From Trichocoleus sp. FACHB-46 (GTDB taxonomy: Bacteria > Cyanobacteriota > Cyanobacteriia > FACHB-46), in contig NZ_JACJOD010000031.1 in the NCBI RefSeq assembly GCF_014695385.1, forward strand, positions 62,001 through 126,000: a DNA stretch of 64,000 nt, given 5' to 3'. The notes beneath the pieces were generated by a model. The model ran no database searches. It was given only the letters and a program-made list of their open reading frames with translations, and was not told the origin of the DNA. The position numbers and the translations under genes were made by a program. This document shows positions 54,910 through 64,000 of the stretch, piece after piece; position 1 is the first letter of the stretch; each line of letters opens with the position of its first letter.

Positions 54910-55491
54910 TCAGTAGCAAAATTTTCCATCCTGCTGAGTTGGACGCTCTTTAGCAGTCCGTATTGCTCCAATTAACGTAGAAGTAATAACGCAGCGCTTT
55001 GCTTTACCACCTTGGCGTAAAACGAGAGTCAGCCGTCCTAGCTGTCCGTTCACATGCCCTCTGTAGTTAAACTGGATCCGCCAAACTCCACCAGATTCAA
55101 GAAAAGTAGTTTCATTCGCGTCGATGCTCACCCTAGAATCGAAGTTGCGCCAAGATAAGGTGTTGGTATTGACATTTCTAGGGTGAACAACCCATTGACC
55201 AGTACCATTGTGTTCACGAAAACTCACTTGCCAAGTGGCTTTGTTTTGTTTAGCACTGCGCTTGGCATCGTGAAGTGAGCGTTGAACTTGGTCTTGAGTA
55301 GCAATAAGACTTTGATTATTAATGAAAGCTAACCAACTGGGTGCAGCGATCGCGCTCACAATGCCGATCATTGCTACAGTAACTAAAAGTTCTAAAACCG
55401 TGAAACCTTTGGTAGAGGGCTTTTGAGGCTTGGAGTAAAGCTGACGATAAAAGCCTTTGATCTTCACAAAAAAGCACCCTGATAATGTCAT
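54910..55491 (-). CDS. GspH/FimT-like pseudopilin, second copy
   Basis: A 193-residue prepilin-like protein. The cleavage motif is GFTVLELLVTVAMIG (about residues 28-42) with Glu at position +5, followed by a hydrophobic helix and SAIAAPSWLAFINNQ. The C-terminal globular part (SWRNFDSRV, GGVWRIQFNYRGHVNG, RCVITSTLIGAIRTA) is the GspH/FimT type. It is paralogous to the gene just upstream. The ATG at 55491 has no ribosome-binding site and abuts a hairpin; a GTG at 55465-55467, preceded by AGGGTG, may be the real start. It is the last gene of the hps-like operon. Confidence 0.82.
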   Translation of the reverse strand: MTLSGCFFVKIKGFYRQLYSKPQKPSTKGFTVLELLVTVAMIGIVSAIAAPSWLAFINNQSLIATQDQVQRSLHDAKRSAKQNKATWQVSFREHNGTGQWVVHPRNVNTNTLSWRNFDSRVSIDANETTFLESGGVWRIQFNYRGHVNGQLGRLTLVLRQGGKAKRCVITSTLIGAIRTAKERPTQQDGKFCY

Positions 55492-55492
55492 T

Positions 55493-55510
55493 CAGGTTAT
55501 TTGTAACCTG
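55493..55510 (-). promoter_or_regulatory. Hairpin directly upstream of the last pseudopilin gene
   Basis: CAGGTTA (55493-55499) and TAACCTG (55504-55510) form a perfect 7-bp stem with a 4-nt loop, one base upstream of the ATG at 55491 on the minus strand. In the mRNA it would cover the usual ribosome-binding position, so it may lower translation or mark a processing site; alternatively, the true start lies downstream at the GTG. Confidence 0.45.
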
Positions 55511-55613
55511 TTTTCAGGATGCCCAAAAGTATATGAGATCTACAAAAATAGAACAACTTAAATGCTAACGTCTTAAGCTCAAAATCTAATAAATTAAAAC
55601 CTAGAAAAACCTT

Positions 55614-56300
55614 TTAAGAACCAGGATAACAACCCTTTTCAGTAGAAGAATTATAATTATCTTTTTCGGCTTGTATTGTCCCTAAAATCGTTTTTATAGT
55701 AACGCAACGCTTCGTACCACTGACAGGTTGTGTCAAATCATCACGTCGAGGAATAGCAACAGCAATTTGCAAGCCTGTTTCAGCATCACGAGGAAGGACA
55801 CCTCGGTAATCAAACGTGATAACACCAGTAGGGTTTATAGTAGCAGCAGAAGCAACTTTTTTATTTTCAGATTGAAGATTAGTGTAGACAAGAAGTTGGC
55901 CTGGTTTAATGTTGTCAGAGCTGAGAAGGTTTTGCCAACCTTTACTAATGTCGGGTGTAGCTGCAGGAGCAACAGCGTATTGCGGCACTCGGTTTTGATT
56001 GCGAAAGCTGACGCTGTAGCTTCTCTTTTGGCGTTTAGCTTCGCGCTGAGCTTCTTGTAAAGCACCTATCACTCGATCTTGAGCAGCAGTTACGCGCTGA
56101 CGATTTACAAACGTCAGCCAACCAGGAGCAGCGATCGCGGCCAACGCCCCAATCATGATCACTACTACCAGCATTTCTATGAGAGTGAATCCAGAAATTT
56201 TTGAAGTTTTTGCGCACGATAAATATTTCAAAGCAAGCTTTTCAAAGCTAACCTTCCTAGGAGATACTTGCTGGTCTGGCTGCGATAATAAACTCTTCAT
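55614..56300 (-). CDS. GspH/FimT-like pseudopilin, first copy
   Basis: A 228-residue prepilin-like protein with a long leader (about 36 residues) before the cleavage site GFTLIEMLVVVIMIG. AAIAAPGWLTFVNRQRV and RVIGALQEAQREAKRQKRSY follow, the GspH/FimT pattern, and the tail has RCVTIKTILGTIQAEK with a terminal cysteine region (GCYPG). Minor pilins of this type prime type IV pilus or type II-like pseudopilus assembly. It shares the AP-WL-F-N motif and the RCV segment with the next gene, so the two are duplicates. It lies 48 bp after the HpsC-like gene. Confidence 0.82.
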   Translation of the reverse strand: MKSLLSQPDQQVSPRKVSFEKLALKYLSCAKTSKISGFTLIEMLVVVIMIGALAAIAAPGWLTFVNRQRVTAAQDRVIGALQEAQREAKRQKRSYSVSFRNQNRVPQYAVAPAATPDISKGWQNLLSSDNIKPGQLLVYTNLQSENKKVASAATINPTGVITFDYRGVLPRDAETGLQIAVAIPRRDDLTQPVSGTKRCVTIKTILGTIQAEKDNYNSSTEKGCYPGS

Positions 56301-56348: not shown

Positions 56349-57488
56349 TTACTGGTCAGTGTTACCAAAGAAGCCGCGTCCAAAGATCCGTACTTCACTA
56401 GATGGTAAGTAGATTAGATTATTCTGGTTAGCCACACGTCTGCTGGGGTCTTGAATCAGACGCGCCAACGCATTGCCCCGCAAATACAGCAATACTGACG
56501 AGGTTGTAGAATTGACGCAAGCGTAGAAACTGCTCGTTTTGGCAGAGGTAGCAGTCTCAAAGTTAGCAGGAATTCTCTGCGCACCGGGTTGTGTAGCAAC
56601 AGTCAAATCACCACCCAAAGCCCCTCTATTTGGCGCTCTACAATCTAGAATCCCTTGAGTAGGATCAGTACTGATCGAGTGAAGTGGAGCTATAGCAGTA
56701 CTGTCGTATCGGGTGTCATCAATATAGTCCACCAAGGTTTGCAAGTTGTTTCTGTCGTAAGACTGAGTTGCAACTGATGTATAGCGAGTGGGAGCAGTTC
56801 CTGATTTCCACTTGTTCATAGCTGCGGGTATCGTATCCGCAGAGGCTAAATCGAAGGGAACAAATCCTGAATCTGGATTAATTGCAAAACCTGTATTACC
56901 ATTTGTCGGAATTCCGTCTCGAATTTCAAATCTGGCAATACGTGAGGCATTGGACCAAATACTATCAGCAGGGTTTTTAACTAAGTAGTAGGCAACAAGG
57001 GAATAAACGTAAGCATCATTGTCACCTGTTACGGAACCTACTCTCACCCTACCGGTCCCAACCTCATTCACCTCATCCGTTCTATTAAAAAATGTTCGTT
57101 TCCAAAATACTAAGACAGGCTCACAAGTTGCAGCGCTATTGCAACCCGTCACTGGTTTAACTGGGGGAATTTGATTACGAATCGGCGTTTGAGTTGTAAC
57201 GTTAGGATCGCCATTCAAGCCATAAGCGTCGTAAACATATACAGCTTCTTGTAGATCTTGCACCATGTACTCTAAAGCTGCCTGAACCTCTTGCTCAGAA
57301 TTGGATTTAGCTCGCTCTTTCCGCTCAGAAGTCATGATGTTGACCAGGAAAGCTAGTAATGAGCTAATGACAATTCCAGAAATAATTACGGCAACTAAAA
57401 GCTCAATCAGAGTAAAGCCAGTGGTTTTAGATTTTGGCTTTAAACTCTGCTGTTGACTGCTGGCTAGAAATTTGAAGATGTTAAACAA
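56349..57488 (-). CDS. hpsC: HpsC-like pseudopilin
   Basis: A 379-residue prepilin-like protein. The cleavage motif is GFTLIELLVAVIISGIVISS (about residues 24-43), then a long helix (EQEVQAALEYMVQDLQEAVY) and a large globular domain. This PilW/GspJ-like layout and its place between the HpsB-like and GspH-like genes match the hps locus of Nostoc, in which HpsC is needed for hormogonium polysaccharide secretion. The start is TTG at 57486-57488, supported by AGAGGA seven nt upstream; no ATG is available before the cleavage motif. The symbol is inferred from order and family. Confidence 0.82.
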   Translation of the reverse strand: MFNIFKFLASSQQQSLKPKSKTTGFTLIELLVAVIISGIVISSLLAFLVNIMTSERKERAKSNSEQEVQAALEYMVQDLQEAVYVYDAYGLNGDPNVTTQTPIRNQIPPVKPVTGCNSAATCEPVLVFWKRTFFNRTDEVNEVGTGRVRVGSVTGDNDAYVYSLVAYYLVKNPADSIWSNASRIARFEIRDGIPTNGNTGFAINPDSGFVPFDLASADTIPAAMNKWKSGTAPTRYTSVATQSYDRNNLQTLVDYIDDTRYDSTAIAPLHSISTDPTQGILDCRAPNRGALGGDLTVATQPGAQRIPANFETATSAKTSSFYACVNSTTSSVLLYLRGNALARLIQDPSRRVANQNNLIYLPSSEVRIFGRGFFGNTDQ

Positions 57489-57575: not shown

Positions 57576-58268
57576 TTAGTAAAGGTTGGTAGGAACCCTT
57601 TGTTGAATATTGCTGCTAGTGCTCCGAGTACCAATGTCAGTTTTTAGTACGATAAGAGGTCGATTACGGAACCCTCCCCCTTTAGCGGTTGCACCTGTAA
57701 ATAGGTTTGCTACAGGAGTAGTGTTCGGGGTGCCAGAACCACCTCTAAAAACATCCGCATCTCCTCGGTAAACCCTGATTAATAGACCATAGCCTTCTCG
57801 TCTAGCTGCTTCCCCTCTAGCAACTGCATCAGTATTGGTGTCTGCGCTGGTGCGAGTGCGGATTGCCTGGATCACAAAGTCTTGAGGATCTGTGAAACTA
57901 ATATTACCGTTGGCATTAATTAATGTTCCCTGATCAGAATCAGTAAGAAGCGCTGCTGTAGGCGGCGCGAGGCAAGGATCGCCACTGTCAGGCAAGGTAT
58001 CAGTTGCACAGCGAGCTTTATCGGGTGGGCTAATGGCACCGGAGCGCAAGCTGTCGATATATCCTTGTCCTGCTTGAGTGGCTAGCTCAACTTGCCTAGC
58101 TCTGACCCTGGAAGCCACAGAGATGGCCATTGGTGGGGCGATCGCGATCAACAGCACTGTTAATACAACGATCGCCATTAAGGACTCAATGATCGTAAAA
58201 CCTGAATCGGGTTTAGAGGATGGAGATTTTAGCCGTCCTGAAAGATAGGTTTGAACGTGTTTCATCAT
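57576..58268 (-). CDS. hpsB: HpsB-like pseudopilin
   Basis: A 230-residue prepilin-like protein. The cleavage motif is GFTIIESLMAIVVLTVLLIA (about residues 23-42), with Glu +5, followed by IAPPMAISVASRVRARQVEL, then a globular part with paired cysteines (ARCATDTLPDSGDPC). It resembles the PilV/GspI-like pseudopilins of hps loci. It starts 36 bp after the hpsA-like stop with GGTGG ahead of a double ATG, so co-transcription is very likely. The symbol rests on the neighbouring HpsA-like gene. Confidence 0.82.
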   Translation of the reverse strand: MMKHVQTYLSGRLKSPSSKPDSGFTIIESLMAIVVLTVLLIAIAPPMAISVASRVRARQVELATQAGQGYIDSLRSGAISPPDKARCATDTLPDSGDPCLAPPTAALLTDSDQGTLINANGNISFTDPQDFVIQAIRTRTSADTNTDAVARGEAARREGYGLLIRVYRGDADVFRGGSGTPNTTPVANLFTGATAKGGGFRNRPLIVLKTDIGTRSTSSNIQQRVPTNLY

Positions 58269-58304: not shown

Positions 58305-61300
58305 TTAACGGTTGTAATCTGCGTTGGTAGCAGTACAAGCAGGCCGATAGGGGTTATTGGTCTGCAAGGCAGGAACAAATTGTGTACCAGTAGGAGCCAC
58401 CCCAGATTGGCGGGCTTGAGCATTGCTGAGATCTTGAGGTTGGGCTGCACACAACAGCGTTTGTACCCAAGCGTCACTGCGATCGACCTGCCTAAAGAAC
58501 TCGTCTCGAGTACCTGTAGGTGCAGTGAATCGCTGAGCAAACAAGTCGGGCAACTGAGTCAGCAAGGCTACATCGAAACCCCATTCTCGAGTTGGTGGCT
58601 CGTAGTAAGGATGTTTGCCCCAGCTGGTGCTCCCAATCTCCCCGTTATCGGTTCTGTAGGCCTGCCGATAATCAGCCCCGAACAGACTAACGCCTGTCGC
58701 AGTTTGGGGATCACTAGACTCAACAAACCCAGCGGCTGTAGATACTACCACAGGTTGGAACGGTGCAGTTGCGTAAGCGCTTCGCTTAATCTGAATAAAA
58801 GAACCAGCGATTCTAGCTTTGACCCTAGTCCAATTTTCTAGGAAGCGTGGGAAGTTATGTAAACCCCCGCCACCTTCAATCCAAGAGTTAGTTGTATCAG
58901 CAATATTGGCTACCCGTGCTGGAGAGTCACCCGCTGCAATTACCAAATTGAAGTTATTGGTTGTAGCTCTTTGCTGCCAGCGAGTGTTGTTGCTAACAAC
59001 GTTGTTATTAGTGATGGAGCTTAGATCATTGGTGTCTGTAGGGCCACCAGTGGTAACTTGAGTCTGAAGAACAGGCGTGACTAAGGGCTGTCCATCAGCA
59101 GTAACCGCTGTAATCGAAGCGCTAGCCGGAATACTTTGACTGTTATTGACGAAGCCCAGCAAACGACCGCCGAAGATTTTCGTATTAGCACCTACCTTCA
59201 CGTCTGTTTTACCAAGAAAATTGCCTGCTAGCGTATGCGGGGTTCCTACCGCATCCGCAAACGTCACAGAACCGTTAGAAATCCAGAAGACATTGTTAGG
59301 ACTGACTCCATTTAGAATCAAGGTTACGCCAGGATCACCATCCCTACCAAAGTTAACAGCAGCACCACCTTGAAAAACGAATATGGAATCAGAATTACCT
59401 TCTAAAGTAATGGTTTGTCCACCATTAATCGTTGGGTTGCCATTAGGCAAAGTATAAACGTTGACATCACGGGATGCAGTCAAGGTTTGAGTGTTGCCGG
59501 TCAAAGTTCCAAGGGATGGCGTTAACCCTGCTAGTGCATCCCTAGCCGCTTCGATTTTGGTAAGGTCTGGAGTAGCACAGGTGCCACTTAAGCCAGTAAC
59601 TTGATACTTGTTCGACTCACCTGAATTTTTAACGCAGACAGTAAAGTCAGAAGGATCTGTGGTACCTGGCCCATTGAGACTAGGCACAGTTGGAATCTCA
59701 GGAGTATCTGGCAGAATCAGCTTTTCGCCGCCTTTGTCGGGGGGTAGGTAGTACAGGGGCTGATTTGTAGCGTAAGTCCGGTTGGGGGCATAGCCAGGTT
59801 GGCCATAGCCTACGTTAGCTGCGGTGTTGACGTTTTTAACACCTGCAAACCACAATGTGTTTTCTTGTGTGCGGGGAGGAGCACTAGCGTAAGTAGTGTA
59901 AGGAAATCTAGCGATCGCGCCAGCAGTGCTAATTCCAATAGGAATTGCAGTTGCCTCACTCTTTGGGCCCGATATCATTGGCGTAAATTCAAGCGCCCCA
60001 TAGATATTGCGGGCAAAAGCAATACGACGAGCATACTGACGAAATTCGGGTATGGCGGGTTGAGAGGTTGTACCTGCTGCGTGCACTGTATCTAGCACAT
60101 TTGTACCAATACTCAGGGGAGCTCCAGTTGCAGCAGCAGGAGTAGCTTTTAAGCCAAGATCAGCAGGAGTATTGGTTTTGGGAGGTCTTACCCACCAATC
60201 CGTCGGTCCACAAGACGAGACAGGCACCTTAACGCACATCTCCATGAGGTACTCATGCGTATTGACCCGACGCTGAATTGGAGTGACGAAGTTGTTGAAG
60301 TAAGAGCTAGGACGATAAGTTGTTGGTGGGGTGTCAGGATTACCTCTGTAGTCTGCATCCGTAAAGGCGCGACTGGTGACAAAGTTGTTATCGAAGAAAC
60401 CATTTTGTCTGCGCTTCTTCACTGTGGCCCAGTTATCTTGATTATTATTGCGGAGATCGTAGTCACCATCAGCCCGGTAGCCCAACGCAAAACTATCAGA
60501 CAACAGAGAAACAGCATCAGAAATTACAGAAGCAGGCCGCCAGAAATCTCCTGTGCCACAATTGAGGCCCGGAGTGCCAGGACGGCAAGCGAACTCACGA
60601 TCGAGTGTTGCGCGGGTGTTATAGAAATAGTCTGCGGTCCAGTTAGCTCGAGTAGCTAGCTGTTGGGTAAACTCCTCGCGGTCGTGTAGATTAAACCCTT
60701 TAAGGGCAGCTGTGGTTCCTCTTAGGGTATCTGCCTGAACATAAACAGGTAGATTAGTTGCTAAGATGAGACCTTTCTCTTCAGCCCGATAGGTATTGTC
60801 GTCTGTCCGATTTAGCCTGCTGCCATTGACCAGCATGATGCCACTGGGACGACGAGCTGGATCGAGCCTATAATCCACTGGGCTGAGAAGCTGCTGTGTG
60901 GCTTGCCGCTGTTCATCTGTCAGCCCTGCTGTTGTGGGCAGAGGCTCACTCAAGTCTGGGGTAGCATCATCGCGAGTGGCATAGATAATACCGCTATTGG
61001 GTAGCACGTATTCTCCCTGCATCCCTAACGCCGCTGAGAATAGCCCCCCCGCGATCGGTTGCCTGCGAATTCTATTTAGATCGATGACAGTAGTACGGAC
61101 TTCCAGGGGCTGCCGATCTTCTATCGCTAGGTCAGAGCGAGTTGTCAGCAGTTCCGTAATTCCTGCCTTACTTGAAGTAGTAGCACTAACAGTAGCAGGC
61201 GCAAGAGCCGTAACTTGAATTGTTCCACCAGGATTGCCAACGTTAGGAGTAACTGCAGTTACAGTACCCTTAACGACGTTGAGCAATGTCTCATTGGCAC

Positions 61301-64000
61301 CGCCTGCAAAGCCTTGAACGGTAACAACATCACCAACTCTAATGCGGGCCGTCAATACGGCAGTGTCACTAACGTCTGAGAGATTTGAGACAGTGTAAGT
61401 GCGTACATTTCCGGCAGAAGAGCCTGTAGTGACCGCAAATGAGCGTCCTTCAATGGCTTTAACCTGTCTCGCATCCAAGAAGGCCGCTTCTTTAATAGCT
61501 CCATGTGGGATTCTTGCTTCACTGGGAGTCAGGCTATTGCTAGCAATGTCTAAGCCGCAAAGACTAGAGTCAATTGCGGACTGGTCAGCTAAGCTCAGCG
61601 GTTTCCCACCAGGTGCATCTAAATTCTTTAAAGCATTACGGAGTGGCTCATTTACAAAACGTCCATTGGGGAACACCAAATTAGCTTGGTAATTGAGCTT
61701 CTGTCGCCAGTTACCTGCTACTGCCACATTGCTGTCTTCTGGTAAAAATAGACCCGCTGCATTAGCACCTGAACCAACAGCAATATTAGCAGATGTAGTA
61801 ATAGGAATATAGCTAACACCGTTGTTCGACCTAGCTCCGGTTAGAGTAGTGAGCGGTGCCCCTGGAGCGTCACCATTATAAAGTCTGTCAATCACTCCAT
61901 CAGCCACCACGGTGGTGTCAATACCACCACTGACGTCTGGCAAACCTAAATCTGTTCGATTTCTTGCTGTTATAGCGTTAGTTGGGTCGTAATAGCTACT
62001 AACACAAGCAACAGGAGTTTGGTAATTTGTAGGTGCATCAGGGTTATACGGGCTAATGTCATAGTGATACACCGCAGTAGCTCGCATCTTGAGGTGCCCT
62101 GACAGGATGCTCTCATCAATAGGCGTGATTGGATCATCAGCACGGGACATGGGCATGCTGTCTGGCCAAACAACCCGATAGCTCTCCTGGGTCAGTGGTG
62201 TGTTTGGGTCATTATAAGTTGCGATGGGAGGAGCAGGTGCTGCCGGATCATCTGTAAGGTTGCTGTCGGGTGGAGCAGGTAAGAAGGTGGTAGCAGGGGT
62301 TGGGGCATAAATACCTGCACCAGTGACAACCCGTAAACCACCTACCGCTTGCAGCTTATCTTCTGGCCTTTGAGCCGCCGATTGTTCCCAGAAGCCGTTA
62401 CGACCTGTATCACCTAAGTCACTCAGTTCATCCACCCGTGTACTGCGGGTGCGATCGATAGTGTTCCGAGCAGTCCACTTTTCTGGAGTGCCGCCAGCTT
62501 TACGGACAAGTTGCTCAACACCCTCACCAACGAATTTCAAACCGTTGAACCAAGTAGCAGGCAACCCATTCCCAATAAGCATGCGATCGCCAAGTCGAGC
62601 CTCCTCGAGATCTGTTCTGCTCGCTTCTGGGTCAGTCGCTTCCGGCTTCGCAGTCGCAAGAGTTAAATTATTAAAACTTGCTCCTGTGGTTAGGTTGGCA
62701 GGTAAAGCCCACTCATCAGGTGGACGTAACGGATTATCCCGTCCTGTAAAAACACTAGCAGTAGTATAAGTAGTACCAACAGCTAAAGTTGCCTCTTGCC
62801 CAAACGGTACTTCACTGTACGGGATCCGGCGTGTACGGTTTCTAAAATACCGCTCTAACGACCTACGCCGAGCCTCTACACCTAGACCTGGGTCTTCTCT
62901 TAGACGTCTCGCAGTGTCGGCTATTACTTCTTGGGGGTCAGTGGTTGCTGCTCGTAGCTGAGCTGCACGTACTAGAAAGTCAATCCGCAGCGTATAAGCT
63001 CTGCTATTGTAAGCAACTTCTCTAGGGTTATTCGTGGTTGATTGGTCAGTATTCTGAAATACATCCTCCCGAGGCCGCACTCCAGGTTTGTTAAATAAGT
63101 GAATGCCTACATTGTCACCAGTTACGGTGTTACCTGTTAACGGACCCTTACCAACGTTACCGCCAACTTCAATCCTGCTGTTATCTTCTGTGTAATAGCA
63201 GGAGTTCTGGCTACTCACCTGAAAAAGAGTAACGTTAGCTCCAGTTGTAAAGAGGTTGCTATTGGTAAAAACACGTCCGTTTAGTTTGAATTCAGGACCA
63301 GGGGTAATATCTAGATCATCTTCATAAAGAACAGCGTTATTATTTAGCGGAACTCGACTCCGATCTTGCTGAACTTCTAGAACCGAAATCCCTTTGTTCT
63401 TGTTGTTAGCTTCATAGCGGTTATTTGTCAGAACTGGGTCGCCACTAGCAATCGGGACCGTAGCAGCATATACAGAAAAGCTCTTAACAATTTTGCCATT
63501 GCTAGCATACCAACCGGAGTTGCCAACCAAGGAAGCACTGGTACCGGCCGCAGTCGCACATTGTCCACCAATGTTATTGACTGACATGGGCGGAGTCCGA
63601 GCTTCTAAGGGAGAGCGACCTCTGGTAAAGGTGCCATCTGGTCTTCTAGGTGGTAGTCGCCAAGCAATGGAATAAAAAGTATAAGCATCGTAGCGGCCAT
63701 TGCTATCTGTATCAACTGGAAACTTCCAACCTTGTCGGCTGGTTTCATCATTTTCTAAGGTGTAACCACCTGCCGTCCGATTAGCGTTTTCTCCAATTGT
63801 GTTGTTGTTATTAGCATCAGCAACCAACTTAAGACGCACTTCATCAGGAAAGGTGTATTTCGAATCGTCCATCACGTCGCGCAATCGACGGTCCGCTGGA
63901 GTTGCCCTTGGTAAGTTGGGGTCTTCAAATAGAGCATCCAATTTTGCTCTAGCACGGTCAAGCGCAGGAGCAGCAGCATTTAATGCAGCTTGGTTAACTC
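58305..64000 (-). CDS. hpsA: HpsA-like giant exoprotein, N-terminus beyond window
   Basis: The frame is open to the window edge; 1,878 residues follow a TTG at 63941, and 19 more codons continue upstream, so the true start is outside. It resembles HpsA of filamentous cyanobacteria, a large exported protein required for hormogonium polysaccharide and gliding. Repeated Asn/Thr/Asp-rich beta-like segments fill it. About residues 1456-1616 (59095-59575) are a DUF3494 ice-binding-type domain (SDSIFVFQGG, NNVFWISNGSVTF, GNFLGKTDV, GGRLLGF). About 831-924 is a separate beta-rich insertion. Paired cysteines are spread through the chain. It leads the hpsABC-pseudopilin operon. No signal is visible because the N-terminus is missing. 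Confidence 0.85.
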   Translation of the reverse strand, partial: VNQAALNAAAPALDRARAKLDALFEDPNLPRATPADRRLRDVMDDSKYTFPDEVRLKLVADANNNNTIGENANRTAGGYTLENDETSRQGWKFPVDTDSNGRYDAYTFYSIAWRLPPRRPDGTFTRGRSPLEARTPPMSVNNIGGQCATAAGTSASLVGNSGWYASNGKIVKSFSVYAATVPIASGDPVLTNNRYEANNKNKGISVLEVQQDRSRVPLNNNAVLYEDDLDITPGPEFKLNGRVFTNSNLFTTGANVTLFQVSSQNSCYYTEDNSRIEVGGNVGKGPLTGNTVTGDNVGIHLFNKPGVRPREDVFQNTDQSTTNNPREVAYNSRAYTLRIDFLVRAAQLRAATTDPQEVIADTARRLREDPGLGVEARRRSLERYFRNRTRRIPYSEVPFGQEATLAVGTTYTTASVFTGRDNPLRPPDEWALPANLTTGASFNNLTLATAKPEATDPEASRTDLEEARLGDRMLIGNGLPATWFNGLKFVGEGVEQLVRKAGGTPEKWTARNTIDRTRSTRVDELSDLGDTGRNGFWEQSAAQRPEDKLQAVGGLRVVTGAGIYAPTPATTFLPAPPDSNLTDDPAAPAPPIATYNDPNTPLTQESYRVVWPDSMPMSRADDPITPIDESILSGHLKMRATAVYHYDISPYNPDAPTNYQTPVACVSSYYDPTNAITARNRTDLGLPDVSGGIDTTVVADGVIDRLYNGDAPGAPLTTLTGARSNNGVSYIPITTSANIAVGSGANAAGLFLPEDSNVAVAGNWRQKLNYQANLVFPNGRFVNEPLRNALKNLDAPGGKPLSLADQSAIDSSLCGLDIASNSLTPSEARIPHGAIKEAAFLDARQVKAIEGRSFAVTTGSSAGNVRTYTVSNLSDVSDTAVLTARIRVGDVVTVQGFAGGANETLLNVVKGTVTAVTPNVGNPGGTIQVTALAPATVSATTSSKAGITELLTTRSDLAIEDRQPLEVRTTVIDLNRIRRQPIAGGLFSAALGMQGEYVLPNSGIIYATRDDATPDLSEPLPTTAGLTDEQRQATQQLLSPVDYRLDPARRPSGIMLVNGSRLNRTDDNTYRAEEKGLILATNLPVYVQADTLRGTTAALKGFNLHDREEFTQQLATRANWTADYFYNTRATLDREFACRPGTPGLNCGTGDFWRPASVISDAVSLLSDSFALGYRADGDYDLRNNNQDNWATVKKRRQNGFFDNNFVTSRAFTDADYRGNPDTPPTTYRPSSYFNNFVTPIQRRVNTHEYLMEMCVKVPVSSCGPTDWWVRPPKTNTPADLGLKATPAAATGAPLSIGTNVLDTVHAAGTTSQPAIPEFRQYARRIAFARNIYGALEFTPMISGPKSEATAIPIGISTAGAIARFPYTTYASAPPRTQENTLWFAGVKNVNTAANVGYGQPGYAPNRTYATNQPLYYLPPDKGGEKLILPDTPEIPTVPSLNGPGTTDPSDFTVCVKNSGESNKYQVTGLSGTCATPDLTKIEAARDALAGLTPSLGTLTGNTQTLTASRDVNVYTLPNGNPTINGGQTITLEGNSDSIFVFQGGAAVNFGRDGDPGVTLILNGVSPNNVFWISNGSVTFADAVGTPHTLAGNFLGKTDVKVGANTKIFGGRLLGFVNNSQSIPASASITAVTADGQPLVTPVLQTQVTTGGPTDTNDLSSITNNNVVSNNTRWQQRATTNNFNLVIAAGDSPARVANIADTTNSWIEGGGGLHNFPRFLENWTRVKARIAGSFIQIKRSAYATAPFQPVVVSTAAGFVESSDPQTATGVSLFGADYRQAYRTDNGEIGSTSWGKHPYYEPPTREWGFDVALLTQLPDLFAQRFTAPTGTRDEFFRQVDRSDAWVQTLLCAAQPQDLSNAQARQSGVAPTGTQFVPALQTNNPYRPACTATNADYNR

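Follow-up and report, generated by a model that had tools for sequence, protein, structure and literature searches.

A DUF3494-type beta-solenoid as an optional insertion in the polysaccharide-locus protein HpsA of Trichocoleus sp. FACHB-46

Described DUF3494 solenoids, ComZ and the hps locus

Type-1 ice-binding proteins (IBPs; FfIBP 4nu2, AnpIBP 7bwx, SfIBP 6bg8, 5uyt) are stand-alone secreted proteins that match PF11999, the former DUF3494, and fold as a beta-solenoid with an alpha-helix alongside; face B of FfIBP is its ice-binding site (PMC6561018). The family is also described in a cyanobacterium, the Antarctic Nostoc sp. HG1, whose nIBP, a secreted PEP-CTERM protein that stands alone, was measured to bind ice (PMC7783341). 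A related solenoid occurs in Thermus thermophilus, where the GspK-like pseudopilin ComZ contains an inserted beta-solenoid that most closely resembles FfIBP in fold; ComZ was shown to bind DNA, and a location at the pilus tip has been argued for it (PMC6561018), and PilB of Streptococcus sanguinis represents the general principle of modules grafted onto a pilus tip (PMC8179133). Published accounts describe HpsA as a hypothetical membrane protein or give it no known function (PMC6495340, PMC4284469), and its locus is required for gliding of filamentous cyanobacteria (PMC4284469). Our literature search did not find HpsA and ice binding together, and only a single paper mentioned both DUF3494 and pilin, one time each.

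The window analysed here (64,000 nucleotides of a Trichocoleus sp. FACHB-46 contig) contains on its minus strand a coding frame (58305–63998) for the C-terminal 1897 residues of HpsA (NF038301 EPS_HpsA, 1493 bits, cut-off 400). The full frame of 1977 residues (G000:C31:120431-126184) extends past the right end of the window, with about 80 residues, including the N-terminus, lying beyond it. The score far above cut-off and the adjoining hpsB and hpsC identify the protein as HpsA. Directly after hpsA, all on the minus strand, are genes for an HpsB-like pseudopilin (57576–58268; NF038303, 1.6e-39, 136 bits, just below the cut-off of 150; PF07963 N_methyl), the pseudopilin HpsC (56349–57488; NF038304, 7.2e-90, 301.8 bits, cut-off 200) and two further prepilin-type pseudopilins, one GspH-like (55614–56300; PF07963, 4.4e-05, and weak GspH models) and one at 54910–55491 (PF07963, 2e-05). 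No Hps family model scored above cut-off for these last two genes (54910–56300), to which the names HpsD and HpsH are not given here; a glgB-like gene lies beyond them on the opposite strand. Upstream of hpsA, just right of the window (L143 1376-8547), are htpG, two GT2 glycosyltransferase genes and clpB. The hps cluster of Phormidium sp. KS also has clpB, htpG and a GT2 gene (PMC4284469), which suggests that the proximity of the chaperone genes to hps genes is conserved. In its score against NF038301 and in its flanking genes on both sides, this HpsA resembles those of hormogonium polysaccharide loci, but it carries a DUF3494 insertion that is absent from most of them.

Identity and predicted fold of the inserted domain

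The initial annotation had recognised DUF3494 from five ordered motifs in this frame, all of which are present on the minus strand in the order given: DLTKIEAARDALAGL (59523–59567), NGGQTITLEGNSDSIFVFQ (59370–59426), VTLILNGVSPNNVFW (59283–59327), GNFLGKTDVKVGANT (59181–59225) and IFGGRLLGF (59151–59177). Scanning the segment at 59079–59681 of the window against Pfam confirmed the assignment, with a PF11999 Ice_binding match (5.7e-14) whose score of 52.7 bits against a cut-off of 28.7 means that it is not due to chance. The matched part (profile positions 67–195 of 208) lies at 59154–59564 on the minus strand, and the genome has no further PF11999 match. The whole 1897-residue HpsA frame gave no match in a Pfam scan, so routine whole-protein annotation can miss the inserted domain. 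A phmmer search with the segment found the Shewanella ice-binding protein 6bg8 (2.6e-5), 13 of 23 relatives match PF11999 on their own, and a profile of 23 inserts matches ice-binding proteins in the PDB with values down to 2.6e-18.

Alignment with HpsA proteins lacking the domain sets the limits of the inserted beta-solenoid at about 59094–59654 on the minus strand (PSDFTVC ... ITAVTAD), while the confidently folded part of the model spans about 59094–59723. An N-terminal lead of the folded domain (59565–59723, minus strand; model pLDDT about 80–90) contains two cysteines that are near-invariant in the alignment (FTVC ... GTC). Type-1 IBPs differ in this respect, as their canonical N-terminal third, which forms the first DUF3494 coils, appears to be replaced in HpsA by this Cys-paired lead; PF11999 positions 1–66 have no profile match there, though in structure the alignment with the IBP N-terminus begins at model residue 27.

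The AlphaFold2 model, built from an alignment of 23 genuine homologues, reached a mean pLDDT of 79 (about 90 in the core and low only at the two ends) and a pTM of 0.78. Its strands form the discontinuous beta-solenoid that the initial annotation had named, here right-handed and with a helix (residues 73–84) alongside, and its nearest PDB structures are DUF3494 IBPs: the first 31 Foldseek matches are ice-binding or antifreeze proteins of this family, and in VIA-align PDB IBPs occupy ranks 1–25 with Z scores of 17.2–19.0 and rmsd values mostly of 2.3–2.6 over 168–179 residues. The best match other than an IBP is ComZ (6qvi), with a Z score of 8.1 over 161 residues that is only moderately above those of unrelated beta-helices (6.8 and 6.7). 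A search of BFVD gave DUF3494 proteins of a giant virus as its sole matches above noise. The inserted domain stays confident when modelled within an 896-residue C-terminal HpsA context, in which only the insert and some of the preceding flank are reliable and most of the remainder has low confidence. Profile, alignment and predicted fold together show that this is a true discontinuous beta-solenoid of the DUF3494 type, and one that, in distinction to the stand-alone IBPs, is an optional module in a single fixed loop of HpsA.

Distribution and evolutionary history

The initial annotation had left it as a question whether other HpsA proteins carry the domain; only a minority do, in scattered lineages. 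In a MAFFT alignment of 15 HpsA proteins, 4 have the domain, inserted between two conserved anchors, and the others lack it, so that what was said to be embedded in HpsA is an accessory domain added at one fixed site. Measured from LWF to QPLxxPVLQ across loci having both anchors, the distance is bimodal (24–61 residues without the domain, 235–615 with it). One locus (L016, genome G006) has a TP/KP-rich repeat linker at this site instead of a solenoid, as if the insertion loop were a hot spot for additions.

HpsA was found in 159 of 195 genomes, whereas PF11999 alone exceeded its cut-off in 2 of the 195. Both of these matches are inside HpsA, so a PF11999 match in cyanobacteria need not mean cold adaptation. 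PF11999 under-counts carriers because divergent inserts, even in the same genus, score below threshold, and carriers were counted with our own insert profile instead. Built from four inserts, this profile places the domain in 32 of 388 Cyanobacteriia genomes and matches 3/3 genomes of the window's family. Carriers include Trichocoleus sp. FACHB-40, Aliterella atlantica, Chroococcus sp. CMT-3BRIN-NPC107, Gloeocapsopsis crepidinum, two Okeania, two Spirulina, Phormidium tenue FACHB-1050 and Pseudanabaena, in a genome scan that favours carriers and whose proportions are not frequencies. The domain is absent from all HpsA loci examined in Nostocales, Microcoleus, Moorena, Roseofilum and Planktothrix. 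Insert-bearing HpsA in Gloeocapsopsis crepidinum, Aliterella and Chroococcus indicates that HpsA is not confined to filamentous forms. The coccoid, non-filamentous G. crepidinum (G036:C93) has a closely spaced pair of hpsA genes, each containing the DUF3494 insert. Pseudanabaenaceae HpsA proteins are mostly 2500–3200 residues long, and the DUF3494-like domain in them is broken by long extra insertions.

On a tree of 84 HpsA cores (fast alignment and FastTree), presence and absence of the domain require 9 changes, 8 of them forced by well-supported branches. The inserts nevertheless have a common site, the Cys pair and a GVxPNNVFW signature, also across distant carriers, and insert distances follow core distances (Mantel r 0.82, 0/5000 permutations; r 0.60 among distant pairs only). 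Because domain and HpsA diverge together despite the 9 changes, one old insertion followed by repeated loss is the simplest reading and the one that fits best, with the transfer of entire hpsA genes as a possible, though less simple, route of gain. We also considered, and do not favour, a recent horizontal capture by the organism of the window, as the difference in GC content is small (0.46 in the insert, 0.51 in the rest) and insert and core distances agree. A comparison of the window gene with that of a congener gives a dN/dS of 0.28 for the insert, against 0.13 for the remainder of the HpsA part compared; on these estimates the insert is under selection, but freer than the rest of HpsA.

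Candidate roles of the solenoid

The HpsA N-terminus consists of a basic leader followed by an uncharged hydrophobic stretch, GFVLPTVVMVSLVVVLLTTALIV. A G-F-x-L-P motif is present in 28/28 sequences, the putative mature residues 1–22 lack charge, and residue 5 is Thr in 26/28 and Glu in 0/28. The tip subunits GspK and PilX likewise lack a glutamate at position 5. Given this prepilin-like N-terminus without glutamate 5, its size and the place of its gene directly before pseudopilin genes, HpsA is probably a large tip-located, pseudopilin-like subunit of an HpsB/C/D pseudopilus, comparable to GspK or ComZ. We keep to "probably" because the N-terminus has no significant pilin match (PilX_N at 0.01 in 3/28 sequences and GspG at 0.069 for the protein itself are weak, and an N-terminal HpsA profile returned only noise, and no pilin, from the PDB) and most of the modelled 896-residue C-terminal part outside the insert has low confidence.

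Our main reading, to which we assign a probability of roughly 0.55, is that the domain serves a tip-like HpsA as an optional extracellular module, a receptor or adhesin most likely gripping slime glycan or the substratum, with a function other than ice binding. The solenoid would be exposed outside the cell on its HpsA carrier and, while slime is exported and in gliding, would hold an extended extracellular ligand, with the hormogonium polysaccharide (HPS) itself or the substratum as the likeliest candidates. In gliding, pili are believed to attach to HPS as their surface (PMC12288463). Against this reading, most HpsA proteins, including all Nostocales examined, do without the domain. A rival reading is that the solenoid is a structural decoration, a rigid spacer or stabilising lobe inserted once, tolerated without a ligand of its own and hence often lost. 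Three things speak for it: the nine changes on the HpsA tree, the widely varying length of the domain with its internal insertions (most of all in Pseudanabaenaceae), and a rate of evolution about twice that of the rest of HpsA by dN/dS. A dN/dS of 0.28 is, however, that of purifying selection, and the Cys pair and GVxPNNVFW signature are conserved across distant carriers, so that we regard mere decoration as rather unlikely, if still the most serious competitor of a receptor or adhesin role.

Ice binding or ice adhesion, serving freeze tolerance or attachment to ice, is the role that family and fold first call to mind, and the active DUF3494 IBP of Nostoc sp. HG1 (PMC7783341) sets an example within the cyanobacteria, albeit as a stand-alone protein where the HpsA domain is an insertion. 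Coil spacings in the window's domain are 32, 20 and 20, and in its relatives 27–43, 16–29 and 19–42, compared with nearly fixed values of 29–30, 16 and 19–20 in IBP crystals, all read from sequence rather than coordinates and with the third spacing of the 5uyt second domain (8, misparsed) and the first of 5b5h (truncated) excluded. The extra residues follow the B-face strands, giving longer and charged loops beside this face than in type-1 IBPs; they contain His and are Cys-bracketed in several relatives, and the T/S/A content of this part is 0.21, against 0.21–0.38 in IBPs. Several carriers (Okeania, Spirulina, Aliterella and Pseudanabaena) belong to taxa that live mainly in temperate or tropical settings, and the carriers are not known as cold specialists. 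With the loops beside the ice-binding face lengthened and charged and several carriers temperate or tropical, ice would be the least likely of the three kinds of ligand that the initial annotation had offered (ice, glycan or another repeating surface), and a true ice-binding function of the HpsA domain seems very improbable.

ComZ is, by structural analogy, the closest precedent for the HpsA domain, and the HpsA case would be a variant of an already known arrangement. Both have an ice-protein-like beta-solenoid inserted in a pseudopilin-related protein with adjoining pilin genes, and for both a role as tip receptor is proposed. HpsA differs in being three to four times larger and in belonging to a polysaccharide and motility locus, and the ComZ solenoid is longer (about 380 amino acids), with loops where FfIBP has its packing helix; searches detected no sequence similarity between HpsA and ComZ. 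ComZ is the only pilin found with the same type of solenoid, is the best non-IBP structural match and binds DNA (PMC6561018), which would favour a DNA receptor, with HpsA serving natural transformation. That HpsA lies in a polysaccharide and motility locus instead of a competence locus makes this improbable, as does the position of the DNA-contacting lysines of ComZ, which lie between its two domains (PMC6561018).

The receptor or adhesin reading can be extended, more tentatively, to a general one: HpsA would be a tip protein of a slime and gliding pseudopilus and its solenoid an interchangeable receptor for slime polysaccharide or substratum, and, taken together with ComZ, DUF3494-type solenoids would then be receptor modules that recur at the tips of type IV filaments and have nothing to do with ice. 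The structural precedent of ComZ gives a testable prediction on the place and role of the HpsA domain, and a defined, optional and well-folded module at a known HpsA site offers a clean experimental handle, with natural presence/absence pairs and a domain that can be purified. Among the control genomes, NF038301 also gave a match below cut-off in Deinobacterium chartae (Deinococcota), a member of the phylum of ComZ, and a distant link of HpsA to Deinococcus-Thermus pilins is possible.
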